A stretch of 64,000 bases of DNA from Nitrospirota bacterium. GTDB taxonomy: Bacteria; Nitrospirota; UBA9217. Below the pieces are notes generated by a model that was given only the letters and a program-made list of their open reading frames with translations, searched no databases and was not told the origin of the DNA. Below are positions 2,468-32,187 of this stretch, one piece after another. Where the stretch lies: assembly GCA_029858565.1 (NCBI GenBank), contig JAOUEV010000004.1, positions 1 to 64,000 on the forward strand, read 5' to 3'. Positions within the stretch are counted from its first letter, which is position 1. Every line of letters begins with the position of its first letter. The position numbers and the translations under genes are program-made.

Positions 2468-3004
2468 ATGTCGACAGAGGGCGCGCAGAACGAGCCCGAA
2501 GAGGAAATCGAACGGGACCAGTACCTCGTCTTCAAGATCAAGAGCCAGGAGTACGGCCTGAAGGCCATGCTGATCCAGGAAATATCCGCCATGTTCGACA
2601 TCAAGGAAGTGCCGAATGCGCCGGCGTACATCGACGGCATCATGAACCTTCGGGGCCGGCTGGTGTCGATCATCAACTTCCGCAAGAAATTCGGGTTCGA
2701 GGCGAAGGAGCATGACGAGGAAACGCGCATCGTCTACGTGGAGCACGAAGGTTTTCCCATCGGGATCATCGTGGACAGCGTGGAAGAGGTGATACGGATC
2801 ACCGACGACAAGATGCAGAAGCTCCCCGAAACGGCGATCACCACGATGTCCGAAAAGTACATCGAAGGCGTGGGCATGCTGGACGAACGGCTGATCATCG
2901 TGCTGGACGCGAAGAAAGTGCTGGACAAGGCGGACGTGGCCGGCATCGGCGCGGCGGACATGCAGGGCGCCGGGCAGCCGGCGGGCGAACAGGCCGCGGC
3001 CTGA
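2468..3004 (+). CDS. cheW: CheW-type chemotaxis coupling protein
   Basis: A 178-residue CheW domain protein that couples receptors to the CheA kinase. The CheW fold spans about residues 18-155: it begins with YLVFKIKSQEYGL, and the conserved NLRGRLVSIINFRKKFG segment follows near residue 60, as in CheW proteins. The C-terminal 20 residues are low-complexity Ala/Gly/Gln. The ATG is set by a strong ribosome site AAGGAGG at 2456-2462. It sits 42 bases after the receptor and 29 before cheY, consistent with one operon. Confidence 0.95.
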   Translation: MSTEGAQNEPEEEIERDQYLVFKIKSQEYGLKAMLIQEISAMFDIKEVPNAPAYIDGIMNLRGRLVSIINFRKKFGFEAKEHDEETRIVYVEHEGFPIGIIVDSVEEVIRITDDKMQKLPETAITTMSEKYIEGVGMLDERLIIVLDAKKVLDKADVAGIGAADMQGAGQPAGEQAAA

Positions 3005-3033
3005 GACGGACAAACGGCAAGGAGGAGGGACAG

Positions 3034-3405
3034 ATGGCGCGAGTAATGGTCGTTGACGACGCCGCATTCATGCGCGGTTCCCTGAAATTCATCATCGAAA
3101 CCGCGGGACATCAGGTTGTGGCGGAGGTGGACAAGGGCGAGGACGCGCTGCGGCTGCTGAAGCAGCACCGGCCCGACATCGTGACGATGGACATCCTGAT
3201 GAAGGGACAGGACGGCCTGGCCACCCTGCGGCAGATCCGGGAAGTCGACCCGAACGCGAAGGTGATCATGATAACCGCCATGGGACAGGACACCAAGCAG
3301 GAGGAGGCCCGGAAACTCGGCGCAGCGGGGTACATACGGAAACCGTTCAAACAGACCGAGATCGTGAGCGAGATCGAGCGGGTGCTGGGGCTCACGGCGG
3401 CGTGA
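3034..3405 (+). CDS. cheY: CheY-type single-domain response regulator
   Basis: A 123-residue stand-alone receiver domain. All key residues are present: acidic pair D8/D9, phospho-acceptor D53, T81 and K103 followed by P104. It is expected to be phosphorylated by CheA and to bind the flagellar switch or another motility output. A GGAGGAGGG ribosome site lies just before the ATG. Its stop overlaps the GTG of cheB by 4 bases (GTGA), which suggests translational coupling. A degenerate second copy lies about 1 kb downstream. Confidence 0.94.
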   Translation: MARVMVVDDAAFMRGSLKFIIETAGHQVVAEVDKGEDALRLLKQHRPDIVTMDILMKGQDGLATLRQIREVDPNAKVIMITAMGQDTKQEEARKLGAAGYIRKPFKQTEIVSEIERVLGLTAA

Positions 3406-4433
3406 TCAAAGTCCTCGTTGTGGACGATTCCAGCTTCATGCGGAAGTCCCTTGCCCATATCCTGGAAACGGACCCGTCGATAACGGTCGTGGACACGGCG
3501 GACAACGGCGAAGAGGCGGTCATCAAGGCCGAAAGGCTCCGTCCGGACGTCGTGCTGCTCGACCTGTCCATGCCGGTCATGGACGGCCTTGCGGCCCTGG
3601 CGCAGATCATGGCCAGCCGGCCGACGCCGGTCCTGGTCCTGAGCGGCCTTGCGAAAAAAGACGCCACGGTCGCGTTCCGGGCGCTGGAGCACGGCGCAGT
3701 GGACTACATTGCCAAACCTTCGGGCGTGATCTCCTACGACATCGAACGGCTCAGGTCCGAGATCATCCTCAAGGTCAGGAACGCGGCCGCGGCCGACGTG
3801 GGCAAGCTGCTGCGATGGATGCCGGCCCTCCTCCCCGCGCCCGCCCGGACGGCGCGGGACGGCGGCGGGAGCATTGTCGTTCTGGGCGCGTCGACCGGAG
3901 GGGTGAATGCGCTCCCCCTCGTGCTGTCCGGCCTGCCGCGGGACATGAAGAGCGCGCTGCTCGTCGTGCAGCACATGAGCCTGGAATTCATTCCGCACCT
4001 GGCGGAGCGGCTGAAGCGGGCATGCGCGCTGCCGGTGGCGATCGCCCGGAAGGACGCCGTCGTCGTGCCGGGGCAGGTGCTGGTAGCGCCCGGCGGCTGC
4101 CACACCGTCATTGCCAGGCATGAAGGAACGGTGAAAATACGCTTCACCCGGAAGAACGCTGCGTCTCACCTGTCTCCGTCCGTGGACCTGGCCATGGAGT
4201 CCGCGGCGGCCGTCTATGGGGAAAGGACCGTGGGCGTGCTGCTGACGGGCATGGGCGCGGACGGGGCTCGGGGCATGTGCGCCGTGAAGGACGCGGGCGG
4301 CGCGACGATCGCGCAGGACGAATCGAGTTGCGTCGTGTTCGGAATGCCGAAGGCGGCGATCGAAGCGGGGTGCGTCGACCAGGTCCTGCCGCTGCCGAAG
4401 ATCGCCGATGCTATCCTGTCGAAAGCTTCATAA
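3402..4433 (+). CDS. cheB: Chemotaxis protein-glutamate methylesterase CheB
   Basis: 343 residues. The N-terminal receiver (about 1-120; D8, D9, phospho-acceptor D54) is joined to a CheB methylesterase/deamidase domain (about 150-343). The catalytic triad is visible: S164 in the GASTGG motif, H191 in VVQHM and D287 in GMGADGARG. It removes methyl groups from receptor glutamates during adaptation. The matching methyltransferase CheR is not in the window. The gene starts with GTG, overlapping cheY by 4 bases. Confidence 0.96.
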   Translation: MIKVLVVDDSSFMRKSLAHILETDPSITVVDTADNGEEAVIKAERLRPDVVLLDLSMPVMDGLAALAQIMASRPTPVLVLSGLAKKDATVAFRALEHGAVDYIAKPSGVISYDIERLRSEIILKVRNAAAADVGKLLRWMPALLPAPARTARDGGGSIVVLGASTGGVNALPLVLSGLPRDMKSALLVVQHMSLEFIPHLAERLKRACALPVAIARKDAVVVPGQVLVAPGGCHTVIARHEGTVKIRFTRKNAASHLSPSVDLAMESAAAVYGERTVGVLLTGMGADGARGMCAVKDAGGATIAQDESSCVVFGMPKAAIEAGCVDQVLPLPKIADAILSKAS

Positions 4434-4450
4434 AGCGAGGAGGCGTACGA

Positions 4451-4819
4451 ATGGCGAAAGTGCTGGTTGTGGATTCCTCTCCCTTTATGCGAGGGACCCT
4501 GAAATTCATGCTTGAGAGCGGTGGCCACGACGTGGTCGCGAACACGGACAACGCGAAGGAAGCCCTGGACTTCTACAGCAGATACCGGCCGGAGATCGTG
4601 ACCATCGACATCTCGGAAGATGAAGGGCTCGGGCTGGTGCGCGCTCTTTCCGGCCTTAATCCCTCGTTGAAGATCGTGACGGTCTGCGGCGAGGGCAATG
4701 AGGACAAGCGGGAAGAGGCGAGGAAATCAGGCGTTTTCGGCCACATCATGAAACCCTATAAGAACGACGAGATCCAGTCGGAGATCAGCAGGGTGATCAA
4801 GGCCGCGAAAAAGCCGTAA
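4451..4819 (+). CDS. Degenerate CheY-like receiver protein
   Basis: A 122-residue receiver fold clearly related to the cheY at 3034 (same FMRG-LKF-ESGGH-V pattern), but with altered active-site residues. The acidic pair is D8-S9 rather than D-D. The switch Thr is replaced by C79. The usual MPxxDG after the phospho-acceptor (D53) is ISEDEG. The C-terminal Lys-Pro (KPY) is kept. Magnesium binding and phosphorylation may be weakened or lost, so it could act as a phosphate sink, decoy or constitutive partner. The start is set by GAGGAGGCG about 8 bases before ATG 4451; the open frame extends upstream to 4277 but only as a shadow of cheB. Confidence 0.88.
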   Translation: MAKVLVVDSSPFMRGTLKFMLESGGHDVVANTDNAKEALDFYSRYRPEIVTIDISEDEGLGLVRALSGLNPSLKIVTVCGEGNEDKREEARKSGVFGHIMKPYKNDEIQSEISRVIKAAKKP

Positions 4820-4835
4820 CGCAAGGGGGCGCGCG

Positions 4836-5744
4836 ATGAAATGGTTCCTGAATATATCGACAAGAAACAAACTGTTCGCGGGATTTACGCTGATGATCGC
4901 TTTCATAATGATCATCATGGCGGTGGCATATAAGGCCTTCACGGTCATCCACGAGACCCAGGAGGTCATGATCAATCTGGAGTTCCCCGTGACCCTCCAG
5001 CTGGCGAAGCTCAGAAGTATGCTGAACCGGGAGCGCGAATTCATGTCGAGGATGGTCCTGTCGGGGAAAGACGCCGACCGCAAGCAATGGCATGACGACA
5101 TCAAGCAGGCCGGCCGGGAGTACGACGAAGGCATGCAGAGCCTGCTGAAGCTCGTCCGGGACAACGCGCTGTACGCGCCCCTTGCTAAGGACCTGGTCGG
5201 CCGGACCGGCGAGTACCGCAACCTGTGGGACGAGCAGATCGTACCGGACCTGCTGCGGGGAAAAACGCGCGACGCCCACGCGGCGTTCCTGGGGCGGCAC
5301 CTCGAACTGTACGATCAGCTCCGCGAGGTGTTCGTGAAGTTCAGCGGCGTTTCTGAGATGCGGGACCGGGAGCTCAGAAACGAGTCGGAGAAGATCATGA
5401 CGAACACGCTCCGCCTGTTCCTGGTTATCGGCGTTGTCGCTCTTCTTGCCGGGCTCGCGCTGGCGATCTTCATCACCGGCGTCATCGGTACGCCGCTGCG
5501 GCAGGCGTCCTCGATAGCGGAAAAGATCGCCTACGGCGACCTGACCGTGCCCATTCCTCCGGCGGACCGGAAGGACGAGATCGGGTCCCTGTTCTTTGCG
5601 CTGGGCATGATGATCGAAAGCCTGCGCGTGGTGACGCGGGAGATCAAGTCCTCGGTCGAGGTCATCGGCGCGGAGGCCGGTCCCGAGGACTTGCAGGCGC
5701 TGGCGGCAAAACTGAAGAAGCTCGTGTCGCAGTACAAAGTGTGA
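4836..5744 (+). CDS. Membrane protein with four-helix-bundle sensor and HAMP, no output domain
   Basis: 302 residues. Transmembrane segment 1 is at about 12-33. A periplasmic helical region of the 4HB_MCP type spans about 34-188, with TM2 at about 190-212 and HAMP at about 213-265. The protein stops after a short coiled coil, without a chemoreceptor signalling tip, kinase or cyclase domain. This is the front half of a receptor encoded as a free protein between a degenerate cheY and cheA. It may pair with the soluble poly-HAMP receptor at the start of the operon (inference). An AAGGGGG ribosome site precedes the ATG. The stop overlaps the next GTG by 4 bases. Confidence 0.85.
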   Translation: MKWFLNISTRNKLFAGFTLMIAFIMIIMAVAYKAFTVIHETQEVMINLEFPVTLQLAKLRSMLNREREFMSRMVLSGKDADRKQWHDDIKQAGREYDEGMQSLLKLVRDNALYAPLAKDLVGRTGEYRNLWDEQIVPDLLRGKTRDAHAAFLGRHLELYDQLREVFVKFSGVSEMRDRELRNESEKIMTNTLRLFLVIGVVALLAGLALAIFITGVIGTPLRQASSIAEKIAYGDLTVPIPPADRKDEIGSLFFALGMMIESLRVVTREIKSSVEVIGAEAGPEDLQALAAKLKKLVSQYKV

Positions 5745-7456
5745 AGAAAACGGCGCGGCGCAAGGCGGACGGGAGGGCTATGTCCGAAGAAGAGAAGAAA
5801 GAACGCTTCGACGGCGGCGACAGCATGGACTTCTCGGTATTTCTGGGCGATTTTCTGCGGGACGCCCAGGAGGGGTTCCAGGAGGCCGGCACGGCGCTGC
5901 TGGCCCTGGAGAAGGACCACGGACGGAGGGAGGCGCTGGACGATGTCTTCCGGGTCGTGCATACCATCAAGAGCTCTTCCACGATGCTCGAGTTCGCTGA
6001 CATCGCCGGGTTTGCGCATACCCTGGAAGACCTGCTCGGACGCATGCGCGACAAGACGGCGCCGGTCGACCGGACGGCCATCGATATTCTTTTCGACGCC
6101 ATCGGCCTCCTGGAAGCGCTGGTGGTCGCGCGGGCGGAGAAGCGAGCAGAGCCCGCCGAAAGCGTCTTGCAGAAGGTCCGGGAACTGAAGGACCGGATTC
6201 TCGCGCGGGATACGGGAACAGTGCCCCAGGACCGGCCCCTCGGTCCGGAGAAGCCCGCGGCGGCAGCGCCGCAGATCGAAGCGATCCGTTCCGTGCGGGT
6301 GCGGGTGGACGTGCTCGATTCGCTCTTCAACCTCGTGGGAGAGCTTATCATAATCAAGAACCGCATCGACAATCTCGTCGCGGACGTGCCGGGCAAGGAA
6401 CTGAAGGCGGCCTTGTCCGCCATGGACCACATGATCGCCACCCTGCAGGACGACGTGTCCGCGGCGCGGATGGTGCCGGTCGACGAAATCGTCCAGAAGT
6501 TCCCCCGGATGATGCGCACCCTGGCGCGGGAGCGGGGCAAGGAGGTCGACTTCGTCATCGAAGGCCGGGAGATAGAACTGGACAAGTCGATCCTCGACGC
6601 CCTGGGCGAGCCGCTGCTCCATCTGCTCAGAAACGCCGTGGACCACGGCGTGGATCCGCCGGAGGAACGGCGGAAGCTGGGCAAGCCGGGAACGGCGGCC
6701 GTCACGCTGTCGGTGATGCGGACGGAAAACAACATCCTGGTAAGCGTGGAGGACGACGGCGCGGGCATCGATATTTCACGGATGCGGGAACTTGCCGCGG
6801 CCCGGGGCTACGTGAAGCCGGCGGAAGCGGAGCGCATGCAGGAGCGGGACGTGCTGAACCTGCTGTTCCAGCCCGGAGTGAGCAGCACGGAGCAGGTGAC
6901 CAGTCTCTCGGGACGGGGCGTGGGCCTCGACGTGGTGAAGACGTCGGTCCGGAAGATGGGAGGGACCGTAGACATCGCGACCCGGAAAGGAGCGGGCAGC
7001 CGCTTCACCCTGACCCTGCCCCTGACCACGTCGATCATTCAGACCCTGCTGGTCGGCGTGGGCGCCCATACCTTCGCGATCCCCTCGGACATGGTGCTGG
7101 AATCGCTCGAAATCAAGCCGGAGGACGTGAAGGACGTCGGCGCGCGGCAGGCGCTGGTCCTGCGCAGGGAGGCGATTCCCTTCGTGCGGCTGCACGAGGC
7201 GCTGAACATTCCCGCGGAAGAGGGCAGGCGCGACGCTTTCGCGGTCATCATCAAACAGCGCGACTCCTTCGTGGCCGTGGGGGTGGACGCGGTGCAGAAC
7301 CACGCGGAGAACATCATCAAGCCCTTCGACCCCGTTGCGCGGCAGTTCAAGGGCTTTTCAGGCGGCATTATCATGGGAGACGGAAGCGTGGCGCTTTTGC
7401 TGGACATGCCCACGCTGCTGGGGTTCGATACCCTGCGGGAGGAAACGCTGACATGA
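5741..7456 (+). CDS. cheA: Chemotaxis histidine kinase CheA
   Basis: 571 residues from GTG 5741. Domains in order: Hpt/P1 (about 30-140, phospho-acceptor H74 in VVHTIKSSS), dimerisation P3 (about 180-245), HATPase P4 (about 250-435; N-box with RNAVDHGVD, then DDGAGID and GRGVGLDVV), and CheW-like P5 (about 435-565). There is no room for a P2 CheY/CheB-docking domain, making it shorter than the enteric enzyme. An in-frame ATG at 5780, preceded by GGAGGG, is an alternative start that still keeps the whole Hpt domain. The stop overlaps cheC by 4 bases. Confidence 0.95.
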   Translation: MKKTARRKADGRAMSEEEKKERFDGGDSMDFSVFLGDFLRDAQEGFQEAGTALLALEKDHGRREALDDVFRVVHTIKSSSTMLEFADIAGFAHTLEDLLGRMRDKTAPVDRTAIDILFDAIGLLEALVVARAEKRAEPAESVLQKVRELKDRILARDTGTVPQDRPLGPEKPAAAAPQIEAIRSVRVRVDVLDSLFNLVGELIIIKNRIDNLVADVPGKELKAALSAMDHMIATLQDDVSAARMVPVDEIVQKFPRMMRTLARERGKEVDFVIEGREIELDKSILDALGEPLLHLLRNAVDHGVDPPEERRKLGKPGTAAVTLSVMRTENNILVSVEDDGAGIDISRMRELAAARGYVKPAEAERMQERDVLNLLFQPGVSSTEQVTSLSGRGVGLDVVKTSVRKMGGTVDIATRKGAGSRFTLTLPLTTSIIQTLLVGVGAHTFAIPSDMVLESLEIKPEDVKDVGARQALVLRREAIPFVRLHEALNIPAEEGRRDAFAVIIKQRDSFVAVGVDAVQNHAENIIKPFDPVARQFKGFSGGIIMGDGSVALLLDMPTLLGFDTLREETLT

Positions 7457-8085
7457 ACGGACCAACGTTGTATTCGGAAGAGCAGCTCGATTACCTTAAG
7501 GAAGTGATGAACATCGGCGCGGGGAACGCATCCACGGCCCTTTCGCAGCTGATGGGCCGCGATGTCGTCATAGAGATGCCGAGGATCCTGGAGGTGAGCA
7601 TCGCGGAAGCGCATAGCCTCTTCGGGGGCGCGGAGGAGCCCGTGGTCTGCGCGGGCATGGACCTGGTGGGAGATGTGGCCGGAACGTTGTTCTTTCTCGC
7701 GCAGGACGAAGAAAAGAACAAGATCGAGGCGTACGTCGGCAAATACTTGAACGGGGCGATGAAAAAGGAAGCCCGGGAATCGGCGTTCGAGGAGGTTGCC
7801 AACATCATCGCCGGCGTGTTCCTGACGGCGGTCCACGATTATACGGGCCTGCACGTCTATCATACGGTGCCGGTCGTGGTGCGCGACGCGGTCGAGGCCC
7901 TGTTCGAAGAGCCGATCAGCACTGTGTTTACAGCCGCTCCCAAGGCGGTCATCGCGGAAATCGAGTTTGTCTCGCTGCCGGACGGGATGCGGGCGCTGCT
8001 CAGCATGATCCCGACCCCGGCCGCGCTGGAGAAGATACTGGGGTCCATGAAGGGCGTGCGGCAGGGATACGGTATGGGGGAATGA
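7453..8085 (+). CDS. cheC: CheC-family CheY-P phosphatase
   Basis: 210 residues with two copies of the CheC/CheX/FliY phosphatase signature (D/S)-x3-E-x2-N-x22-P. The first is D13, E17, N20, P43. The second is in the segment beginning SAFEEVANI, near residue 113, with its Pro 23 positions after the Asn. Both sites therefore look catalytically complete, whereas many CheC proteins keep only one. It removes phosphate from CheY and is stimulated by CheD in known systems; cheD follows after a 317-base gap. The ATG overlaps the cheA stop (ATGA). Confidence 0.94.
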   Translation: MNGPTLYSEEQLDYLKEVMNIGAGNASTALSQLMGRDVVIEMPRILEVSIAEAHSLFGGAEEPVVCAGMDLVGDVAGTLFFLAQDEEKNKIEAYVGKYLNGAMKKEARESAFEEVANIIAGVFLTAVHDYTGLHVYHTVPVVVRDAVEALFEEPISTVFTAAPKAVIAEIEFVSLPDGMRALLSMIPTPAALEKILGSMKGVRQGYGMGE

Positions 8086-8402
8086 TAAAGAGCTCAAAAC
8101 GGCGGAATATTTTCCCGCAGGGACGCAGATGCGCAGAGAAAAGCCATGCTTTGGATCTTATATTAAGAATCTCGAAATAGGAACAACATAACAAGCCGTC
8201 ATTCCCGAAGAATTAATCGGGTATCCGGTGAAAACCAGATCCCCGATAGAGCCGCTCGGGGATGACGATTCAGTTGGCGTAAGGATTATTATGAGATTGC
8301 TGATAAGTTCTGAAGGATTTTGACGTTCTCCGCGTGCTCTGCGGCACGCCTGGAGGCGCCTGCTTCTGGCTGTGTTGAGACCGGAGTATCCGGGTTTGGA
8401 TA
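8086..8402. other. Intergenic region with short repeats between cheC and cheD
   Basis: No gene is seen. The stretch holds one copy of a repeat related to that at 9906-10012 (at 8115-8142) and a separate palindromic element at 8197-8267. The remainder (8268-8402) is the leader of cheD, with no convincing consensus promoter. Confidence 0.6.
8197..8267. repeat. Palindromic intergenic element with GTCATTCCCG ends
   Basis: The left end CGTCATTCCCG (8197-8207) and right end CGGGGATGACG (8257-8267) are inverted repeats with one mismatch. Internal GGGTATCCGG and CCAGATCCCC segments also pair. This is the widespread 'GTCATTCCCG...CGGGAATGAC' type of small palindrome found between genes in many bacteria. 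No coding capacity. Confidence 0.7.
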
Positions 8403-8960
8403 ATGAACGGACGAAACGGCAAGAATGGTGATGGCCCGGTCTTGCGGGTGCATATGGGCGAAGGGGTCGTGGCGCGGGGGCCGCACATCATCCTGTCCCC
8501 GGGCATCGGTTCCTGCGTGGCCCTGGCCCTGTACGATACTGATGAGCGGCTCGGGGGGCTGGCCCATGTCATGCTGCCGGAAACGGCTGTTCTCGCAGGC
8601 CGCGGCGCGAAACGGGGAGATGGGGACGGAGCGGAGCGCCGGCCCCTTATCCTGTCGCCCTTTCAATACGCGGACACGGCGATCATCACCCTGCTGGAAA
8701 TGCTGCGCGCCCTGGGGGCGGCGGAACAACGGCTCATGGCGAAGCTGGCCGGCGGTGCCAGGATGTTTCCCTCCTACAACGGAGGGAGCGTGGGCATGGG
8801 TGAGCAGACCGCAGCGAACGTCAGGTCCCTTCTGGAGAGAAAGGGAATCCGCCTGGCAGGATGGGACCTCGGCGGAACGCACGGCAGGACCGTGGAGTTT
8901 CACCCCGGAACCGGCAGGATGGTCGTCACGGCGCAGGGCAAAGAAGGCCGGGAATTGTAG
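8403..8960 (+). CDS. cheD: Chemoreceptor glutamine deamidase CheD
   Basis: 185 residues. The CheD core is recognisable from SPGIGSCVALALYD and GGLAHVMLPE. The catalytic Cys is C38 and the His is H55. The Thr usually six residues before the Cys is S32, a conservative change. CheD deamidates receptor glutamines and, in several bacteria, binds CheC to raise its phosphatase activity; a two-site CheC is encoded just upstream. The ribosome site is weak. The PAS-KaiA-like gene begins 19 bases after the stop. Confidence 0.93.
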   Translation: MNGRNGKNGDGPVLRVHMGEGVVARGPHIILSPGIGSCVALALYDTDERLGGLAHVMLPETAVLAGRGAKRGDGDGAERRPLILSPFQYADTAIITLLEMLRALGAAEQRLMAKLAGGARMFPSYNGGSVGMGEQTAANVRSLLERKGIRLAGWDLGGTHGRTVEFHPGTGRMVVTAQGKEGREL

Positions 8961-8979
8961 GAACAGCGCGGAGCAACGG

Positions 8980-9891
8980 GTGCAGCAGAACGAACAAAGC
9001 GACATTATGCGTCAGCGGATCCGCTCTCTCCGGGAGAGCGCGGATTTCCTGTCGGCGGTCTTCGAAAGCCTCGTGGGGTACGCGATCATTGCCGCCGACT
9101 TCGACGGCAATATCCTCGCTTACAACGAGGGCGCTCATCAGATCTACGGGTATGCGCCGGAGGAAGTCATCGGCCGGAACAGCATCGAGCTGTTCGTTCC
9201 GCGGGACGCCACGGGGCCGGGTATGCTGCAGGACGTGATCCGGGAGTTGCTCAGCCGGGGACGATATTCCTATGAAGGGGAACGGATCAGAAAGGACGGT
9301 TCGGCCTTCCCCGCGGATGTCCTCGCCACCCTTACCAGGGACAACAACGGCCAGTTCATCGGCTTCGTGGAACTGGTCCGGGACCTTTCGGAGCAGAAAA
9401 AGATGGAAGCCCTGCAGGTGCGGGAGAAAACGGAGCGCATAGAACAGCTGGAGGAGGAATTGCGATCCCTTGCAGGCCTTTCCAATCTTCCGCAAACGAG
9501 CGTGACCGCCAGGATGTACGGCGTGATGACCCTGCTTGAAGGCGCCCCTGATATCTTCCAGGAACTGGCCGGTCGATATAAGGAACTTATGGACCTGGCG
9601 CTGGAACAGCGGTTATTCAAGGTCAAGCATGATATATCCGGCCCCCTCAGGGCCATCTCGGAAACACTCGGCTTTTACCGTGCAGGGCCGCGCGACGTTG
9701 TGGACATCCATGCAGCTGCCCTGAAAGAGAAGATCAGGACGGCCGAGAGCAGTGAGAAAAAGAAGGCCTATACAGGCGAGGGATGGATCATGGTCCTGGA
9801 ACTCATGGGGGACCTGGCGTCGTTTTACCGCAACCGCGCGCAGCGGGCGGCCTCGCCGGCGGGCGAGGATGCAGACATGACGAAATCATAA
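8980..9891 (+). CDS. PAS protein with KaiA C-terminal-like domain (putative clock regulator)
   Basis: 303 residues from GTG 8980 (GGAG seven bases upstream); ATG 9007 is the alternative. The open frame continues upstream only as a shadow of cheD. Residues about 18-125 form a PAS domain. Residues about 120-165 are a charged coiled coil. Residues about 195-290 resemble the KaiA C-terminal four-helix domain: a Tyr-led helix, then a [VI]-[DE]-I-H motif (I243-H244), and Y283-R284 at exactly the spacing I recall from cyanobacterial KaiA (IH-x38-YR, no gap). KaiA promotes KaiC autophosphorylation by binding its C-terminal tail. kaiB and kaiC follow directly. The KaiA assignment rests on remembered sequences, spacing and context, not on a search. 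Confidence 0.62.
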   Translation: MQQNEQSDIMRQRIRSLRESADFLSAVFESLVGYAIIAADFDGNILAYNEGAHQIYGYAPEEVIGRNSIELFVPRDATGPGMLQDVIRELLSRGRYSYEGERIRKDGSAFPADVLATLTRDNNGQFIGFVELVRDLSEQKKMEALQVREKTERIEQLEEELRSLAGLSNLPQTSVTARMYGVMTLLEGAPDIFQELAGRYKELMDLALEQRLFKVKHDISGPLRAISETLGFYRAGPRDVVDIHAAALKEKIRTAESSEKKKAYTGEGWIMVLELMGDLASFYRNRAQRAASPAGEDADMTKS

Positions 9892-9905
9892 AAAGAGGAT
9901 ATGAA

Positions 9906-10012
9906 CCGCGGAGACGCTGAGGCGCGGAGAAAACCAAGAGACAAAGAAATGGTTTAGTTTTCAAACCGGAATCAAAGCTGTTGACCTTCTCGTCGCCTCC
10001 GCGTCTCTGCGG
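9906..10012. repeat. Inverted-repeat intergenic element (GC-rich 'CGGAGACGC' family)
   Basis: The left arm at 9906-9933 (CCGCGGAGACGCTGAGGCGC, then GGAGAAAA) and the right arm at 9994-10012 (complementary to CCGCAGAGACGCGGAGGCG) form an imperfect inverted pair around about 60 AT-richer bases. Related single arms occur at 8115-8142 and 29731-29758. It sits in the leader of kaiB. No coding sense. Confidence 0.7.
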
Positions 10013-10057
10013 TGAAAACGTTTTCGTTCCGGCTTGTCCGGGTTGAGGAGGAACACC

Positions 10058-10366
10058 ATGAACAAATTCAAACTGCGGCTGTACATCACCGGCAAGACGC
10101 CGAAATCGGAGCGGGCCATAGCGAACCTGGAGGACATCTGCAAAAGGGAGCTGGAGGGGCTCTATGAACTGCAGATCATCGACGTGCTGGAGCATCCGCA
10201 GCTGGCGGAGGAAGAAAAGATCCTCGCCACGCCGACCCTGATCAAGGACCTGCCGCCGCCGCTCAAACGGATCATCGGCGACCTGTCGAATGCGGAAAAG
10301 GTCCTGCTCGGGCTCGATCTCATGCCCGCGGAAAACGGCACGAAGCGGAAGGAGGGGAAGCAATGA
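10058..10366 (+). CDS. kaiB: Circadian clock protein KaiB homologue
   Basis: 102 residues, the normal KaiB length. The sequence matches KaiB throughout: [11 protein letters not shown] at the N-terminus, [28 protein letters not shown] and [17 protein letters not shown]. KaiB is a fold-switching thioredoxin-like protein that binds the CI ring of KaiC and, in cyanobacteria, sequesters KaiA. The ATG at 10058 has a GAGGAGG ribosome site (10045-10051). The frame extends upstream to 10034 without support. The stop overlaps the kaiC ATG by 4 bases, implying coupled translation. Confidence 0.95.
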
Positions 10367-11877
10367 CGGCAATCAACGAGCATAGGTTTGTCGAAAAAAC
10401 CGAAACCGGCATCGAGGGTTTCGACATGATAAGCGAGGGAGGGCTGCCCAAGGGCCGCACCACGCTGATTGCAGGCACCTCGGGAAGCGCCAAGACCGTC
10501 TTTGCCGTCCAGTTTCTCAGTGAAGGGATCGTAAAGAATGACGAGGCGGGCGTATTCGTCACCTTTGAAGAGCCGCCCGACGATATCCGGAAGAATGTCA
10601 TGTCACTTGGCTGGAACGTGGCGGATTGGGAGCAGGAGGGGAAGTGGGCCTTTGTGGACGCCTCGCCCCAGCCCGGAGAGAGCGATGTCATAGCAGGGGA
10701 ATACGACCTGAGCGCGCTCCTTGCGCGTATCGAACATGCGGTGCGCAAAACAGGCGCCACGCGGTTGAGCATGGATTCACTGGGCGCCATGTTCGGACGT
10801 TTCAGCGATGCAGGGCTGGTGCGGAGCGAGCTCTTTAAGATCGCCTCCGCGATAAAACAGATGGGCGTGACCGGCATCATCACCGCGGAGCGCACCGAGG
10901 AGTATGGCGAGGTGGCGCGGTTCGGCATCGAGGAGTTCGTCGCCGACAACGTGATCATCTTGCGGAATGTGCTGGAATCGGAAAAAAGACGCCGTACCAT
11001 GGAGATCCTCAAGTTCCGCGGCACAAGCCACCAGAAGGGGGAATACCCTTTTACGGTGATCAAGGACGTCGGCATCGTGGCCATCCCGCTCTCCGGGATA
11101 GAGCTGAAACAGCGCTCTTCCACGGTGCGCATCAGCTCCGGCAATAGCGAACTGGACAATATGTGCGGCGGCGGCTTTTTCCGCGATTCGATCATCCTGG
11201 TGTCAGGCGCAACAGGCTGCGGCAAGACCATGCTTTCCGCCGAGTTTGCCGGAGACGCCGCACGGAACGGGCAAAAAGCCCTGATACTGGCCTTTGAAGA
11301 AAGCAGGGAGCAGCTCTTCCGAAACGCAAGCGGCTGGGGCATAGACTTTGAACAGATGGAGAACGACGGGGCGCTCAAGGTGGTTTGCCAGTATCCGGAA
11401 ACCCAGGGACTGGAAGACCATCTCATCAACATAAAGCACACCATACTGGACTTCAGGCCCAACCGGGTCGTCGTGGACTCTCTCTCTGCGTTGGAGCGCG
11501 TCTCCACGATAAAAGGGTTCCGGGAATTCGTCATAGCCCTGACCTCGTTTATCAAACACCAGGAGATCGCCGGGCTCTTTACGTCCACAACCGGCGAACT
11601 CATGGGCGGGACCTCGGTCACGGAAGCGCACATTTCGACCATTACCGACACCATCATCCTCCTGCGCTACGTGGAGATGTTCGGAGAGATGCGGCGCGGC
11701 ATCACGGCGCTCAAGATGCGCGGCTCCATGCATGACAAGGACATCCGCGAATTCAACATCGACGGCAAAGGCATGCATATCGGCAAGGCATTTAAAAACG
11801 TCACCGGCATACTCTCCGGCCATCCCAAGTTCAGCACGACCGAAGAGGTGGACCGGATCTCGGAACTGTTCAAGTAG
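10363..11877 (+). CDS. kaiC: Circadian clock ATPase/kinase KaiC homologue
   Basis: 504 residues with two RecA-type domains. CI: Walker A at 38-45 (GTSGSAKT), catalytic Glu pair E69-E70. CII: Walker A at 282-289 (GATGCGKT), E312-E313. The autophosphorylation segment [13 protein letters not shown] is intact, giving T420, S425 and T426 as counterparts of S. elongatus T426, S431 and T432. The C-terminal tail (about 480-504, containing ILSGHP), equivalent to the KaiA-binding A-loop/tail, is also present. The protein therefore looks able to autophosphorylate and to receive a KaiA-type stimulus. It is cotranscribed with kaiB (4-base overlap) and probably with the PAS-KaiA-like gene. Confidence 0.95.
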
Positions 11878-11923
11878 GCGGGAACAGGCGGGGTGGGCCG
11901 CGAACAAGGAGCAAAGGAGGCAG

Positions 11924-14857
11924 ATGGAAAGGCCGCTCAAAGTGCTGCTGGTCGTGAAAGACCCAGCGCGTTCCCATGAACTGGAGAGCCTGCTGGGACG
12001 GGGCGGGCGCGGCCGGATCGAACTCTTGCCCGCGGGACCGGAGAGCGTCGCGCCGGTCTGGACGGCCGGACCGGCGGACCTTGCCGTCGTCGATATCGAC
12101 GGATTCGAAGAACAGGAGTTTGCGATCAATATCCGCGCCTGCATCCGGGACGCCGAGGTCCCCGTGATCACGCTGGGAAGCGCGGAGGACGAAGCGTTCG
12201 CGGGCAAGGTCCTGCGGGCCGGGGCACAGGATTATCTGGTCAAGAAGCGCCTGCACGCGGAGATGCTGCTGCGGGTCTTTCGCTACGCCATCGAGCGCAC
12301 CCGGGCGGAGAAACTGGCGCGCGGAAGCGCGGTCGGGCTGCGCACGATCGTCACGCACAACGCCGATGCCATTATCGTCATGGACGAGAAGGGCGTTGTG
12401 CGGTACGTCAATCCGGCCGCGGAGGCGCTGTTCCGCGTCAAAGCGGATGTGTTCATCGGGAGCTGTTTCGGACATCCTGTTCTGGGCGCCGAGACGGCGG
12501 AGATCGACATCGTCCGCCGCGACGGGCCGTGCGTCGCGGAGATGCGGACGGTCAGGATCGAGTGGGAGGGGAAGCCGGCGATGCTGGCGACCCTGCGGGA
12601 CATCACCGAGCGGAAGCGAATGGAGCAGGCCCTTCGGACGAGCGAAGACCGGTTCAGAAAACTGGTCGAATCGACGACGGACTACATCTACAGCGTCACG
12701 GTGCGTGAGGGGAAAGCGGTTGAATCGGAGCACGGACCCGGCTGCATTGCGGTGACGGGGTTTACGTCCGAGGACTACCGGGCGGACCCCTATCTCTGGT
12801 ACCGGATGATCCACAATGAGGACCGGAACGCCGTTGTCGGGCACGCGGAAAGCGTTCTTGCCGGCAAGGCCGGTCCGCCGCTTGAGCACCGGCTCTTCCG
12901 GAAGGACGGCGGCGTCGTCTGGGTGAAGAACGCGCTGGTCCCTCATTACGATCAGGCCGGACGGCTCCAGTCCTATGACGGGATGATCACCGATATTACC
13001 GAGCGAAAAAAGTTCGAACTCGCGCTCGCGGAAAGCGAAAACAGGTTCCGGCAGCTCGTGGAAAGCTCTCCCGCCATCGTGTACGTATACTGCGTCGGAA
13101 CAGGGGGCGTGTACTATTCGCCGCGGGTGGAACAGGTCCTCGGTTATTCACCGGAATACTTATACGAACATCCCCTGGTCTGGCACGATTCGATCCACGC
13201 GGAAGACCGGGAGAGGGTCGAGCAGGCCATAGGGGAGTTCGCGCAGAACCGGTCCTTCGAGGTAGAATACCGCGTCCGCGACGCGGCGGGAACCTGGCAT
13301 TGGCTCTATGACCGGTCCATTGGCGGCGGCGCGGACGAGCGGGGACTGATCATTGAGGGCATGGCGCTGGACATCACCGAGCGCAAGACGGCGGAGGAGA
13401 AGGTGCTTGCGCACAGCCGTGATCTCGGAAAGATCGCGGAATCCGCCGTGACCCTCAGCACCCTTCCGCTTACGGAAAATATCTATGAAACGATCTGCGA
13501 CACGCTGATGCGCATTTTTGACATTTCGATGACATGGCTGGGCATGGCCGAAGGCGCCGGCGGCATCATGCCGGTTGCGCAGTCCGGCAGCGGCGAGGTC
13601 GACCGGAGGACCATCGAGTTCATCTGGAACGAATCCTATAAAGACCAACGGCCCGCGGCTGCGGCGGAGCGGACCGGAAAGCCTCAGCTGATGAACGACT
13701 TGCAGGCGGAGACGGGGGGCGGGCGCTGGCGCGACGACGCGCTGCGGATCGGTTACCGGTCGGCGGTCGCGCTGCCGCTGGCCAATGCCGGCGGCAAGGT
13801 CATCGGGGTCGTCAGTCTCTACAGCTGCGAGCCGCTCGCCTTTTCCAGGGACAAAATGGAGCTGCTGCAGATTTTCACGGCCCATGCGGAAGGCGTGATC
13901 GAGCGAAGGCTGCTGATCGAAAATCTCGAAAAGACCGTGTCGGAAAGGACCCGCGAGCTCCGGGAATCCATGCTCCATGCGGAGTCGGCCACGCGCGCAA
14001 AGTCCGATTTCCTCGCCAACATGTCCCACGAACTGCGGACGCCGCTCAATTCCGTGCTCGGTTTTTCCGAGGTGCTCATGGACAAGCTGTACGGCCCGCT
14101 GAGCGAAAAACAGGATGACTATGTCAAAAACATCTTTCACAGCGGCAAGCACCTGCTCTCCCTGATCAACGACATCCTGGACCTCTCGAAGGTGGAATCG
14201 GGCAAACTGACGCTCGAGTTGTCGCGCGTCAGGATGGCGCACATAATGAAGAATTCCGTGGTGATGGTGCGGGAGAAAGCCATGAAACACGGCATATCCC
14301 TTGACGTGGAAATGTCTCCCGATGCTGACATCGAGGTCGAAACGGACGAACGGAAGCTTAAACAGGTCTTATACAACCTTCTAAGCAACGCGGTCAAGTT
14401 CACGCCGGACAAGGGGTCCGTGCGGGTGATGGCAAGGCGCGTAAGGAGTGAAACATCAGGGAGTGGGAGTGAGGCATCAGGGGTGAGGGGTGAGGAGTTC
14501 GGGGTTAGGAGTGCAGCGCAAGACGTTTCACCCCTTACACCTAACCCCTTGCCGGATTTTCTGGAAATTTCCGTGGCAGACACCGGCATCGGCATCAAGG
14601 CGGCTGACATGGGCAAGCTTTTCAAACCTTTTTCGCAGCTCGAAGGCGCCTATACCAAGACCTACGAGGGCACCGGCCTCGGGCTGGCGCTCAGCAAACG
14701 GCTCGTTGAATTTCTCGGCGGAAGGATATGGGTGAAGAGCGAATTCGGGAAGGGTTGCATGTTTGCTTTTACGCTGCCGGTGAAGACGCCAAGCGCGATG
14801 CGCGATATGAACGACCGCGAAAAGATGGATGATGAGCAACAGGAAGCTTGGCCGTGA
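11924..14857 (+). CDS. REC-PAS-PAS-PAS-GAF histidine kinase
   Basis: 977 residues from ATG 11924 (AAAGGAGG directly upstream); the longer frame from 11732 is a shadow over kaiC. Domains: receiver-like (about 5-120; D57 possible acceptor, but the acidic pair is K12-D13), three PAS (about 130-235, 240-362, 370-487), GAF (about 505-660), HisKA with H702 in MSHELRTPLN, and HATPase (about 800-970; N-box NLLSNAVKF, DTGIGI, GTGLGLALS). No membrane segments, so cytoplasmic. About 38 residues of repeat-derived sequence interrupt the HATPase (840-877). It lies 46 bases after kaiC, making it a candidate clock output or input kinase (inference). It lacks the KaiB-like domain of SasA. Confidence 0.93.
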   Translation: MERPLKVLLVVKDPARSHELESLLGRGGRGRIELLPAGPESVAPVWTAGPADLAVVDIDGFEEQEFAINIRACIRDAEVPVITLGSAEDEAFAGKVLRAGAQDYLVKKRLHAEMLLRVFRYAIERTRAEKLARGSAVGLRTIVTHNADAIIVMDEKGVVRYVNPAAEALFRVKADVFIGSCFGHPVLGAETAEIDIVRRDGPCVAEMRTVRIEWEGKPAMLATLRDITERKRMEQALRTSEDRFRKLVESTTDYIYSVTVREGKAVESEHGPGCIAVTGFTSEDYRADPYLWYRMIHNEDRNAVVGHAESVLAGKAGPPLEHRLFRKDGGVVWVKNALVPHYDQAGRLQSYDGMITDITERKKFELALAESENRFRQLVESSPAIVYVYCVGTGGVYYSPRVEQVLGYSPEYLYEHPLVWHDSIHAEDRERVEQAIGEFAQNRSFEVEYRVRDAAGTWHWLYDRSIGGGADERGLIIEGMALDITERKTAEEKVLAHSRDLGKIAESAVTLSTLPLTENIYETICDTLMRIFDISMTWLGMAEGAGGIMPVAQSGSGEVDRRTIEFIWNESYKDQRPAAAAERTGKPQLMNDLQAETGGGRWRDDALRIGYRSAVALPLANAGGKVIGVVSLYSCEPLAFSRDKMELLQIFTAHAEGVIERRLLIENLEKTVSERTRELRESMLHAESATRAKSDFLANMSHELRTPLNSVLGFSEVLMDKLYGPLSEKQDDYVKNIFHSGKHLLSLINDILDLSKVESGKLTLELSRVRMAHIMKNSVVMVREKAMKHGISLDVEMSPDADIEVETDERKLKQVLYNLLSNAVKFTPDKGSVRVMARRVRSETSGSGSEASGVRGEEFGVRSAAQDVSPLTPNPLPDFLEISVADTGIGIKAADMGKLFKPFSQLEGAYTKTYEGTGLGLALSKRLVEFLGGRIWVKSEFGKGCMFAFTLPVKTPSAMRDMNDREKMDDEQQEAWP
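14441..14554. repeat. Repeat inserted in frame in a kinase catalytic domain
   Basis: About 114 bases of purine-rich GGGGTGAGGGGTGAGG-type sequence followed by a partly complementary CACCCC...CTAACCCC segment. It lies between the codons for VRVMARR and DFLEISVADTGIGI. It adds about 38 low-complexity residues (Ser/Gly/Glu rich, then PLTPNPLP) that HATPase domains normally lack. Base composition differs sharply from the flanking codons. Confidence 0.8.
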
Positions 14858-14880: not shown

Positions 14881-16266
14881 ATGGAAAAGCTGCTCATTAT
14901 AGACGACGACCCTCTGGACAGGAAGCTTCTCACCGACGTTCTCAGGAGTTACGGCTACGCGGTGGAAACCGCAGCAGACGGCCCGGAGGGTCTCGCAAAA
15001 GCCAGGGAAATCCGGCCCGATATCGTATTGCTCGACGTCATGATGCCCGGCATGAACGGATTCGAAGTGACCGCGCAGTTGAAACAAGATCAGGCCACCG
15101 CAATCGTTCCGGTCATCCTTATGACCTGCCTGAACGACACCGAGAACAAGGTGAGAGGCTTTGACGCTGGCGCCGATGACTTTCTCTCAAAGCCTTTTGA
15201 CCGTATGGAGTTGCGGACAAGGGTCCGATCGCTGCTGAAGCTCAAATTTCTGAGCGACCGTTTACAGGCAGAGAAGGAACCGTACGAATTCACCCGGGAC
15301 TGCATCCGCGGAACGGGGAAGGATGAAAAAGGCGCGGTCCTGATCATTGAGGACGACGAAGGATCGATAGAGCATTACCGGGAGATACTGACGTCGAACG
15401 GCCACGCGTGCCTGATTGCAAAGACCGGGAACGAAGGAGTCTCACTCCTGGAGCATGCTGCAATCGATATCGTTATTCTCGATCTCATGCTGCCTGATCT
15501 CCACGGTCTTGAGGTCCTGAAACTGATGCGGGCCAATCCTGCGGCAGCCGATATACCGGTCATCATCGTGTCGCTTGTGAGCGATCAGGAGATGCGCGTG
15601 GCTGGGATCGATCAGGGGGCCGATGATTATCTCGTAAAGCCGGTCAACCACCTGGAACTGCTGGCTCGTATACGCACAAATCTGCGCAAGACGGCCATCC
15701 GGCGCAAACTCGCGCAAGGGGTGGAGGCCTATTTCCATCATTCCGTCACGGATTCCCTTACCGGGCTGTACAACCGGTTCTACCTGAAGTCCGTCATGCA
15801 GAGGACCATGGCGCTTTCGAAGCGGTTCCACCGGCGCCATTGCCTGTTCATGGTCGACATCGACGACTTCAAGAGCATCAATGATACCTTCGGACATCTC
15901 GCGGGCGACAGCGTGCTCAAGGAAATGGGCGCGATCCTGCGGGAGATGGTGCGAACGTGCGACATTGCGGTGCGATACGGCGGCGAGGAATTTGCCGTGC
16001 TTTTGACGGACAGCAACATGGAAGGCGCCTATCAGTTCGCCGAACGTCTGAGGCAGAGGATCCAAGCATGCCGGCTGGAGGGCATCGGGGATAGGATCAT
16101 AACGGTCAGCATCGGTGTCGCGGAGTTCCGGCCGCATGATGTTCGCCTGGAGGACATCATCAAGCGCGCCGACGATGCGCTGTATGTGGCGAAAAAGGCC
16201 GGCAAGAACAGGGTGGCGCGGTCTTGCCTGGGATGCGGCGGCGGATACGCCGCTGTAAATCAGTAG
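14881..16266 (+). CDS. Double-receiver diguanylate cyclase (PleD-like)
   Basis: 461 residues: REC1 (about 1-118, D8-D10, acceptor D52), REC2 (about 150-270, acceptor D201), GGDEF domain (about 290-450). The active site reads GGEEF (367-371), and the RxxD inhibitory site (RTCD) sits five residues before it, so it should make c-di-GMP under product feedback. Both receivers have an intact Asp, unlike PleD, where one is an adaptor. The C-terminal Cys/Gly-rich tail (SCLGCGGG) is unusual. It starts 24 bases after the kinase gene, its likely phosphodonor. Confidence 0.94.
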   Translation: MEKLLIIDDDPLDRKLLTDVLRSYGYAVETAADGPEGLAKAREIRPDIVLLDVMMPGMNGFEVTAQLKQDQATAIVPVILMTCLNDTENKVRGFDAGADDFLSKPFDRMELRTRVRSLLKLKFLSDRLQAEKEPYEFTRDCIRGTGKDEKGAVLIIEDDEGSIEHYREILTSNGHACLIAKTGNEGVSLLEHAAIDIVILDLMLPDLHGLEVLKLMRANPAAADIPVIIVSLVSDQEMRVAGIDQGADDYLVKPVNHLELLARIRTNLRKTAIRRKLAQGVEAYFHHSVTDSLTGLYNRFYLKSVMQRTMALSKRFHRRHCLFMVDIDDFKSINDTFGHLAGDSVLKEMGAILREMVRTCDIAVRYGGEEFAVLLTDSNMEGAYQFAERLRQRIQACRLEGIGDRIITVSIGVAEFRPHDVRLEDIIKRADDALYVAKKAGKNRVARSCLGCGGGYAAVNQ

Positions 16267-23989: not shown

Positions 23990-24159
23990 GTCAGGACGCA
24001 TGCCCGGCATCGGTCCTGCGAGTCGCGCTTTGTATGGTAAATGTCATTCGGTATCTGATATACTTTTGCGAAAGCGGCTGCATGCGCGCAGCAGAGGGCG
24101 ATGGCCGTCCATTGTCCGTGCATGAAGAGGTTCCCACCGCAAAGAAAGGAACTGCCTGC

Positions 24160-26154
24160 GTGATCGAGGAAGGAAGAAGACGGGTCGTGATCGAGAACGT
24201 GAAGCCCGAGATAGAAGGCGGGACTTTCCCTGCCAAGCGGGTTGTCGGGGAGAAGGTCGAAGTGACCGCTGACATCTTCTCCGATGGCCATGATTCGCTT
24301 TCGGCCCGGATGCTCTATCGCCGGGCAGCAGATCCGTCCTGGACCGCCGTGGCCATGCTGCCGCGGGTGAACGACCGGTGGTGCGCTGAGTTCACGGTTG
24401 CCGAGATGGGTTCCTACGTTTATACCGTGGAAGGATGGGTGGACCATTTCCGGACCTGGCAGCGCGATCTTAAGAAAAAGCACGAGGCCGGGCAGGACCT
24501 GCGCGTGGATCTCATGACAGGCCTGAAGCTCGTGGCGAGAACCGTCGATCGCGCGGTCGACGAAAAAGGCCGGCAGTCGATCTCCTTGCTCAAGGTCCAG
24601 TTCGAAAAGGCGATCGGCAGGAGCGATGCAGAGGCTGTCGCGCTCGCCTTGGGGCAGGAGCTGACGGTCCTGATGGAACGCTATCCGGACCGGAACTATG
24701 CCGTCATGTACGGGAGAGAACTGGAAGTGATCGTGGATCCGCCGAAGGCGCTTTTCAGCACGTGGTACGAATTCTTCCCTCGGTCGGTCCGGCCGGAGAG
24801 GGGAACGCATGGAACCTTCAGGGACTGCGAGAAGTTCCTGCCCTATGTGGCCAGCATGGGTTTCGACGTCATCTATCTTCCTCCAATCCATCCCATCGGC
24901 ACGACGAAGCGAAAGGGGAAGAACAACGCCACGGAGGCTTCACTCGACGATATCGGCAGTCCCTGGGCCATTGGCAGCGCCGAGGGCGGCCACGATGCCG
25001 TGCATCCCGAGCTCGGAACGCCGGAGGACCTCGAGCGCTTTGTCAAGAAGGCCAGGGATCTGGGCATCGATGTTGCTCTCGACCTCGCTCTCCAGTGTTC
25101 ACCGGACCATCCCTATGTGAAGGATCATCCGAATTGGTTCCGGCACAGGCCTGACGGGACCGTTCAGTTCGCCGAGAATCCGCCGAAGAAGTACGAGGAC
25201 ATCTACCCGCTGAACTTCGAGTCCGAGGACTGGCAGGGGCTCTGGCAGGATATCCGGCGGGTGGTGCTGTTCTGGATCGCGAAAGGCGTTCGCATCTTCC
25301 GCGTGGACAATCCCCACACCAAGCCTTTTGTCTTCTGGCAGTGGCTTATCACCGACATAAGGAAAGTGCATCCCGAGGTGTTCTTCCTTGCGGAAGCGTT
25401 CACGCGGCCCAAGATCATGTACCGCCTGGGCAAGGTAGGGTTCGCCCAGTCCTATACGTATTTCACCTGGCGATATACCAAACGGGAGTTCCTGGAGTAT
25501 CTGATAGAGCTGACGCGCAGCGACCTCCGGGACCTCTATCGGCCGAACTTCTGGCCGAACACGCCGGACATCCTTCCCGAGCATCTGCAGTACGGCGGGA
25601 GGCCTGCTTTTATCATGCGTTATCTTCTGGCAGCCACGCTTTCGTCGAATGTCGGTATCTACGGCCCTGCTTTCGAACTCTGTGTGAACGAACCGGTATC
25701 GGGCAAGGAAGAATATCTTCACTCGGAGAAGTACGAAATCAAACATTGGGACCTCGACGACCCGAAGAGTCTGAAAGACGTGATCACGCGGATCAACCGC
25801 ATTCGGCGGGAGAACAAGGCACTCCAGACCACCTGGAACCTAGAGTTCTACGAGACCGACAACGACAACCTGTTCTGCTACGGCAAATCCTCTGAAGACG
25901 GGGAGAATAGCCTGATCATTGCAGTGAATCTCGATCCGTTCCATACCCAGTCAGGCTGGGTGACGATTCCGGTGAAGGAACTGGGGCTTGGTGAGCATCA
26001 GCCATTCCTGGTGCACGACCTGATCGGCGACGACAAGTACATATGGGAAGGGGCTCGGAACTTCCTGGAGATCAATCCTGCGGTGATGCCGGGGAATATC
26101 TTCCGGGTGCGGAAGAAACTGAAACGCGAGACGGATTTTGATTATTTTTTGTGA
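24160..26154 (+). CDS. glgE: Alpha-1,4-glucan:maltose-1-phosphate maltosyltransferase GlgE
   Basis: 664 residues from GTG 24160 (AAGGA nine bases upstream, protein begins just before the conserved RRVVIENVKPEIEGG). Longer starts at 24034 and 24082 add atypical residues. N-terminal beta domain (about 5-100), helical insert, GH13 barrel (about 195-540) and C-terminal beta domain. Nucleophile D383 in FRVDNPHTKP and acid E412 in LAEAFTRP, 29 apart as in S. coelicolor GlgE (D394/E423). Transfers maltose from maltose-1-phosphate onto alpha-glucan ends. The donor can come from the TreS-maltokinase fusion encoded next. Confidence 0.95.
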   Translation: MIEEGRRRVVIENVKPEIEGGTFPAKRVVGEKVEVTADIFSDGHDSLSARMLYRRAADPSWTAVAMLPRVNDRWCAEFTVAEMGSYVYTVEGWVDHFRTWQRDLKKKHEAGQDLRVDLMTGLKLVARTVDRAVDEKGRQSISLLKVQFEKAIGRSDAEAVALALGQELTVLMERYPDRNYAVMYGRELEVIVDPPKALFSTWYEFFPRSVRPERGTHGTFRDCEKFLPYVASMGFDVIYLPPIHPIGTTKRKGKNNATEASLDDIGSPWAIGSAEGGHDAVHPELGTPEDLERFVKKARDLGIDVALDLALQCSPDHPYVKDHPNWFRHRPDGTVQFAENPPKKYEDIYPLNFESEDWQGLWQDIRRVVLFWIAKGVRIFRVDNPHTKPFVFWQWLITDIRKVHPEVFFLAEAFTRPKIMYRLGKVGFAQSYTYFTWRYTKREFLEYLIELTRSDLRDLYRPNFWPNTPDILPEHLQYGGRPAFIMRYLLAATLSSNVGIYGPAFELCVNEPVSGKEEYLHSEKYEIKHWDLDDPKSLKDVITRINRIRRENKALQTTWNLEFYETDNDNLFCYGKSSEDGENSLIIAVNLDPFHTQSGWVTIPVKELGLGEHQPFLVHDLIGDDKYIWEGARNFLEINPAVMPGNIFRVRKKLKRETDFDYFL

Positions 26155-26175
26155 GAGGAGTGGCAATATTGAAAA

Positions 26176-26297
26176 CTTTGACACGGAAGAATCGGATAAA
26201 GGCTTTGATAAAGCCGGATTAAAGCCGGAAAGTTGTTAAAAAGGCTTTGATTCATCATGCTTTTTCATGGATATTAATCCTCCTTTTCCGTGTAAAG
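26176..26297. repeat. MITE-like inverted repeat element upstream of treS
   Basis: Ends CTTTGACACGGAA (26176-26188) and its near-complement TTCCGTGTAAAG (26286-26297) enclose about 100 bases with further internal direct repeats of GGCTTTGAT and AAAGCCGGA. It shares its ends with the element at 31982-32149. The right end stops 10 bases before the treS ATG, so it forms the gene's leader. Confidence 0.65.
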
Positions 26298-26307
26298 TTA
26301 AAACTAT

Positions 26308-31959: not shown

Positions 31960-31981
31960 GCCTCAGGTGTAAAAGAAAGAC

Positions 31982-32149: not shown

Positions 32150-32187
32150 AAGTAGATTTTCAATTTACCCAGCAGGGAGTTACTGTC

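Follow-up and report, generated by a model that had tools for sequence, protein, structure and literature searches.

A PAS domain joined to a KaiA-like domain directly upstream of kaiBC in a Nitrospirota genome, and repeated exchange of the sensor part among its relatives

Results

Gene organization of the kai locus

The window analysed here is a stretch of 64,000 nucleotides, positions 1 to 64,000 of contig JAOUEV010000004.1 (assembly GCA_029858565.1), from a Nitrospirota bacterium of the UBA9217 lineage known from a draft genome only. It contains a gene coding for a PAS domain and a KaiA-like domain, placed between a chemotaxis-type operon and the genes kaiB and kaiC, with the following features (positions of the window):

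2468–8960, + strand: chemotaxis-type operon (CheW, CheY, CheB, a receiver, a 4HB_MCP-HAMP protein, CheA, CheC, CheD)
8980–9891, + strand: PAS-KaiA-like gene, an intact ORF for 303 aa with homologues upstream of kaiBC
9031–9411, + strand: PAS domain, residues about 18–144 (Pfam and TIGR00229)
9388–9483, + strand: long signalling helix or coiled-coil linker, residues 137–168 (AF2 model)
9490–9849, + strand: KaiA-like C-terminal helical domain, residues about 171–290 (alignments, hhalign, Foldseek)
9892–10057, no strand: gap of 166 bp with a long palindrome between the PAS-KaiA-like gene and kaiB (fold, partial genomic copies)
10058–10366, + strand: kaiB (Pfam KaiB, 1.5e-30)
10363–11877, + strand: kaiC (TIGR02655, 655.9 bits against a cut-off of 546.25)
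11924–14857, + strand: histidine kinase with a degenerate receiver, PAS domains, GAF, HisKA and HATPase (Pfam), a candidate output or input kinase
14881–16266, + strand: protein with two receivers and GGDEF (Pfam)

The PAS-KaiA-like ORF starts 19 bp after cheD at a GTG codon (nt 8980), with GGAG upstream of it, and runs free of internal stops to nt 9891, 166 bp before kaiB. Another possible start is the ATG at nt 9007, the orthologue alignment being in favour of the GTG. The palindrome-bearing insert that follows (nt 9892–10057) folds at -68.6 kcal/mol, and pieces of about 30 bp from the palindrome arms are found again at three further sites in the genome. No such gap is found in the closest relatives, where the KaiA-like gene and kaiB overlap by 8 bp; because of this insert, co-transcription is not certain in the window genome. 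A simple promoter and terminator scan of nt 8300–12100 gave results at chance level.

In the upstream operon, CheW, CheY, CheC, CheD and HAMP were assigned by Pfam, while CheA and CheB were read from the sequence. The protein encoded at nt 4836–5744 of this operon carries 4HB_MCP and HAMP, and the MCP signalling domain was not found in it by Pfam. An operon of this type precedes the kai cluster also at loci L058 and L068, and cheC-cheD precede it at L059, L061 and L062. On the downstream side, the degenerate receiver of the histidine kinase (nt 11924–12330) had its best match, among those compared, in the receiver domains of KaiA3-type proteins (1e-14). At loci L058 to L061, the cluster has a histidine kinase nearby whose N-terminal PAS domain is 52–60% identical to that of the KaiA-like protein; the two proteins may thus respond to a common signal at these loci, and the PAS of the fusion may derive from such a kinase. 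Elsewhere in the window, a patatin fused to POTRA and an Omp85 barrel is encoded at nt 60604–63312 (- strand), and glycogen or maltoside genes of the GlgE, GH57 and alpha-amylase type lie at nt 24034–40689.

Domain architecture and identity of the C-terminal domain

The PAS domain of the window protein is certain (Pfam PAS_9, 1.8e-13; Pfam PAS, 1.1e-11; TIGR00229, 8.1e-21), and the AF2 model joins it by the long helix 137–168 to the C-terminal domain, characterized in the alignments by the motifs GPRDVV(E/D)IH and (Y/F)YRN. The combination of a PAS, a coiled coil and a KaiA-like domain, proposed for this gene by the first-pass annotation, is thus borne out in its three parts by Pfam and TIGR00229, by the AF2 model and by profile and structure comparisons, respectively. 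A fragment of a PAS histidine kinase was also considered and rejected, as there is no HisKA and the C-terminal domain is a family of its own.

The C-terminal region (residues about 150–290) had no match in Pfam or NCBIfam, so its KaiA nature is visible only through profiles built from relatives and through structure. The Pfam KaiA cut-off (PF07688) was not reached by the window protein, and one relative matches this model at 2.4e-4. When a profile of 38 relatives was compared by hhalign with 21 cyanobacterial KaiA sequences, an E-value of 2e-4 and a score of 30.3 were obtained over 93 colinear columns, against scores of 11–18 for reversed and shuffled controls; identity to cyanobacterial KaiA in this alignment is about 13%. 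The AF2 model of the domain (pLDDT 87.7) retrieved KaiA C-terminal domains at ranks 1–3 among 350,542 chains with Foldseek, the best match having a probability of 0.97 and an E of 0.08, with no E-value below 0.05. Plain searches against PDB were uneven: a diverse 16-sequence profile (hmmsearch) had KaiA 1q6a as its top match (E 0.19) together with three more KaiA sequences, a 24-sequence profile (A4) did not recover KaiA at E 10, and the single C-domain sequence gave no match. The identity rests, therefore, on the controlled profile-profile comparison and on structure.

Pfam RsbU_N (PF08673), the N-terminal domain of RsbU and a member of the same fold superfamily, also matches two of the relatives weakly (8.9e-4), at a level comparable to the KaiA match of one relative; this makes membership of a KaiA/RsbU superfamily firmer than KaiA proper. 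The C-terminal domain belongs to the KaiA superfamily as a KaiA/RsbU-type helical domain, and we take it to be of KaiA type, within the KaiA3-like group.

Occurrence beside kaiBC in other genomes

In the same-phylum search, 396 Nitrospirota genomes yielded 16 strong matches at E 3.3e-19 or better, one of them being that of the window itself. In 13 of them kaiB-kaiC lie directly downstream, the remaining three being in two genomes (G019 and G237) with no kaiB over the cut-off. The full 16-sequence alignment being too diverse, a tighter subset served as query for a wide scan of 84,980 species genomes, which is thus biased towards members with GPRDVV and shares a few genomes with the same-phylum search. 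It retrieved 26 loci from Desulfobacterota, Chloroflexota, Cyanobacteriota, Nitrospirota, Methylobacter and others, with kaiB-kaiC following in 25. Adjacency was also found at 5/5 new Desulfobacterota loci and at 19/29 Chloroflexota loci. The same PAS-KaiA protein recurs beside kaiBC in Desulfobacterota, and other PAS-KaiA fusions occur in Chloroflexota and Nitrospirota. Conservation beside kaiBC, on which the first-pass annotation had staked its proposal, naming its lack in related genomes as the result that would speak against it, was looked for in these surveys and found.

Chance adjacency was rejected on the co-occurrence statistic, as kaiB is present in 12 of the 14 Nitrospirota genomes carrying the domain, where 1.2 would be expected (p 2.6e-12 in the 396 genomes, kinship of genomes ignored). 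That the genomes of this search are Nitrospirota was concluded from G243, one of them, whose KaiA-like protein matches that of Candidatus Magnetobacterium casense at every residue. KaiA-like proteins away from kaiBC were seen at L043, L057 and L009 and at L145–L148, L151 and L164–L166. A search of plasmids gave no match.

Partner KaiC proteins

In an alignment of 26 KaiC sequences, the window KaiC shows the paired Ser-Thr phosphosites (EAHISTITD), the catalytic Glu pairs and a short conserved tail (16 residues, not shown) without coiled coil. The partner KaiC proteins keep the paired Ser-Thr sites at every locus covering the region, as well as the catalytic Glu, and share the short tail (I/V)L.G.P..E..R..LF. 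The P-loop of the window KaiC CI domain (nt 10474–10497, residues 38–45) reads GTSGSAKT, with an Ala before the Lys as in most KaiC of the set.

By HMM, the KaiA-like domain was found at none of the 20 other Nitrospirota kaiB loci examined, where KaiC, when present, is 32–40% identical to that of the window. About 10 of these 20 loci have a KaiC with a coiled-coil-like tail, and a phosphosite-like motif was seen in one only. As a KaiC with a coiled-coil tail phosphorylates itself without KaiA (PMC10076222), the domain accompanies exactly those KaiC proteins that should need a KaiA. The link to the KaiC class with phosphosites and without a self-activating coiled-coil tail is strict.

Exchange of the N-terminal sensor

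The window-type PAS (57–63% identical) is present at L058, L059, L061, L062 and L068, L062 being a short, thinly covered contig whose phylum label is unsafe. Within the same close clade, the protein of L060 has a receiver and a weak PAS, and in most other loci the N-terminus is a receiver. Other sensors were found on the same C-terminal domain. In Methylobacter (L074:5371–6465) a protoglobin (1.6e-33) is fused to it directly before kaiBC, a version found in a single genome when 151 of the Methylobacter order were surveyed. The membrane sensor MASE3 together with a PAS is fused to it before kaiBC at three Nitrospirota loci (L036, L038 and L042, the last assigned by reading of the sequence). L075 has three PAS domains, L082 a MASE3 with a GAF-like region, and genome G226 codes for an independent PAS-KaiA-like protein whose PAS is FixL-like (L034:1438–2310, - strand). 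In Chloroflexota, two-PAS KaiA-like proteins are common, occurring at 17 loci, read from sequence and checked with Pfam for three, and at 15 of these kaiBC lie directly downstream.

In a tree of 35 C-terminal domains, at least seven changes of N-terminal type are needed. The sensor part has been exchanged repeatedly, between receiver, PAS, MASE3-PAS and protoglobin. Such swapping among related genomes, even to a sensor of the haem-globin type, suggests that various environmental signals can be coupled directly to bacterial clocks.

Relationship of the cluster to Desulfobacterota

The window C-terminal domain groups with four Desulfobacterota-type loci (support 100/99), and the window KaiC, 87% identical to KaiC of such loci, groups with them as well (96/100). 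The KaiA-like domain was not found in the 13 other genomes of the window's family among the 396 searched. On the same 131-kb contig, IspD is 69–75% identical to that of 13/13 family members and at most 53% to that of other families. The kai cluster has probably been shared horizontally with Desulfobacterota, as these groupings indicate, and a family-typical IspD on the same contig fits horizontal transfer better than contamination.

Discussion

A probable KaiA3-like activator with a PAS in place of the receiver

We consider it likely that the window protein is a KaiA3-like KaiA in which the receiver is replaced by a PAS, and that it acts on KaiC under tuning by this PAS. By analogy with what is established for KaiABC and for KaiA3 (PMC11372060), the C-terminal domain dimer would bind the C-terminal tail of the neighbouring KaiC, holding the tail out, and would stimulate KaiC autophosphorylation on the paired Ser-Thr sites, with KaiB opposing this action as in KaiABC systems. 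The PAS-helix unit occupies the same position as its counterpart in PAS kinases, from which it would modulate the dimer: through the long helix, the PAS would set the activity of the KaiA domain, so that an intracellular or ligand signal would reach KaiC directly. Architecture, C-domain superfamily, gene order, the tie to one KaiC class and sensor exchange were observed directly, and the steps from KaiC binding through stimulation to PAS control, along with any rhythm, are inferred.

The closest known protein is KaiA3 (Sll0485) of Synechocystis, which works with KaiB3 and KaiC3 (Koebler et al. 2024, PMC11372060). It promotes KaiC3 phosphorylation, and KaiC3 oscillates in vitro, in a damped manner, with KaiA3 and KaiB3 (PMC11372060). 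KaiA3 and the window protein have the same kind of C-terminal domain, both genes lie directly upstream of kaiB-kaiC, and both partner KaiC proteins have neighbouring Ser-Thr phosphosites. The N-terminus of KaiA3, however, is a NarL-type receiver with a phosphorylatable Asp, where the window protein has a PAS, a term absent from the KaiA3 paper (PMC11372060). Receiver-type loci of Roseiflexus, one genus with a reported KaiA3 (PMC11372060), and of cyanobacteria came out of the same wide scan, being 44–57% identical over the C-terminal domain, with Gomphosphaeria at 57% (E 5e-38). With canonical KaiA of S. elongatus the window protein shares the superfamily of the C-terminal domain and the place in the operon, but not the N-terminal pseudo-receiver, which binds quinones (PMC11372060). 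The KaiBC timer of Rhodobacter (PMC10076222) has KaiB and KaiC in common with the window cluster; it has no KaiA and a KaiC with a self-activating coiled-coil tail, in contrast to the short tail and KaiA-like partner found here.

Alternative explanations

A serious competitor, which we rate slightly below an even chance, keeps the KaiA-type activator and makes KaiC a ligand- or stress-gated switch or an hourglass, with no self-sustained clock: the PAS signal would come in, and the phosphorylation state of KaiC would go out to the adjacent kinase and the chemotaxis-type system. The place of the cluster in a chemotaxis-type operon, shared with L058 and L068, is consistent with it, and so are reports, cited in PMC11372060 and PMC10076222, of KaiBC systems that serve in stress or behave as an hourglass. 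Against it stands the window KaiC, in which the two phosphosites are kept and the tail is short and free of coiled coil, as in the KaiC3 with damped oscillation in vitro (PMC11372060).

That the window PAS binds haem or flavin, so that oxygen, redox or light would set the timer directly, as was first suggested for this gene, appears unlikely. The 51 residues invariant across the PAS domains of six orthologues of the same type include no His, Cys or Trp; the window PAS has a single His, at residue 53 and not conserved among the six, and no Cys. Neither the axial F-helix His of FixL/DosP type nor the reactive Cys of LOV domains is thus present, making FixL-type haem and LOV chemistry unlikely; other ligands, or a non-covalently bound flavin, may be accommodated. 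Among solved PAS structures, significant sequence similarity was seen with 3lyx only, a structural-genomics PAS with no known ligand. In the full-length AF2 model the PAS half has low confidence because the alignment is shallow; its Foldseek matches are generic PAS, LOV and NifL PAS domains, a resemblance that nearly all PAS domains show, and it was kept out of the cofactor claims. What speaks for haem or flavin comes from relatives, in which haem-type sensors sit on the same C-terminal domain. The protoglobin of L074 has a proximal His aligned with that of HemAT, and the FixL-like PAS of L034 has a His aligned to the FixL haem ligand and lacks the oxygen-contact Arg, at what we take to be the ligand positions of HemAT and FixL. 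The idea of a sensor feeding directly into the Kai system is better supported in these relatives than in the window protein, for which haem or LOV chemistry finds no support.

Very improbable is a third reading, by which the C-terminal domain, a helical dimer domain of RsbU_N type, would serve in partner switching with some other protein, adjacency to kaiBC being incidental. The Pfam RsbU_N matches in two members would fit it; the frequency of adjacency in all four sets of loci counted above and a structure search headed by KaiA, not RsbU, argue against it, and unlike RsbU the KaiA-like proteins have no phosphatase domain and their genes adjoin kaiBC. That the kai cluster is Desulfobacterota contamination, binned with a Nitrospirota genome, is hardly credible; the close grouping of KaiC and the C-terminal domain with Desulfobacterota-type loci and the 13 domain-free family genomes might point to it, but it was rejected on the family-typical IspD of the same contig.

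A possible family of KaiA proteins with exchangeable sensors

Turning back to the PAS-KaiA reading, the relatives prompt a wider proposal, for and against which we find the balance even: KaiA outside, and partly inside, cyanobacteria would be a plug-in family, whose KaiC-activating domain has repeatedly been fused to sensors (receiver, several PAS kinds, MASE3 and probably a haem globin) that would gate the KaiC clock or timer directly, with oxygen, redox or metabolites as input and with no need of a separate input kinase. Published N-termini are a receiver, a pseudo-receiver, OmpR, AtoC or PHA02030-like, or none (PMC11372060, PMC8113500), and those listed by Dvornyk and Mei 2021 (PMC8113500), namely OmpR, REC, AtoC and PHA02030-like, include no PAS. 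In the literature on KaiA with PAS or globin, or on KaiA in these phyla, the present variants were not found described, this coverage having subscription papers mostly, and preprints wholly, outside it.

Outside cyanobacteria, kaiBC clusters are in many cases believed to have no KaiA. The genome of the magnetotactic Nitrospirota XS-1 (Magnetocorallium), which PMC10278575 presents as kaiBC-based, is a case in point, and yet a receiver-KaiA-like gene lies before its kaiBC (L073). On our reading, a whole class of such clusters has a KaiA, hidden from Pfam and provided with exchangeable sensors. Two questions thus become testable, the existence of true Kai oscillators in bacteria that are not photosynthetic and the manner in which a clock can be coupled directly to an input, and for these the globin-KaiA and FixL-like PAS-KaiA proteins would offer defined and measurable ligands.
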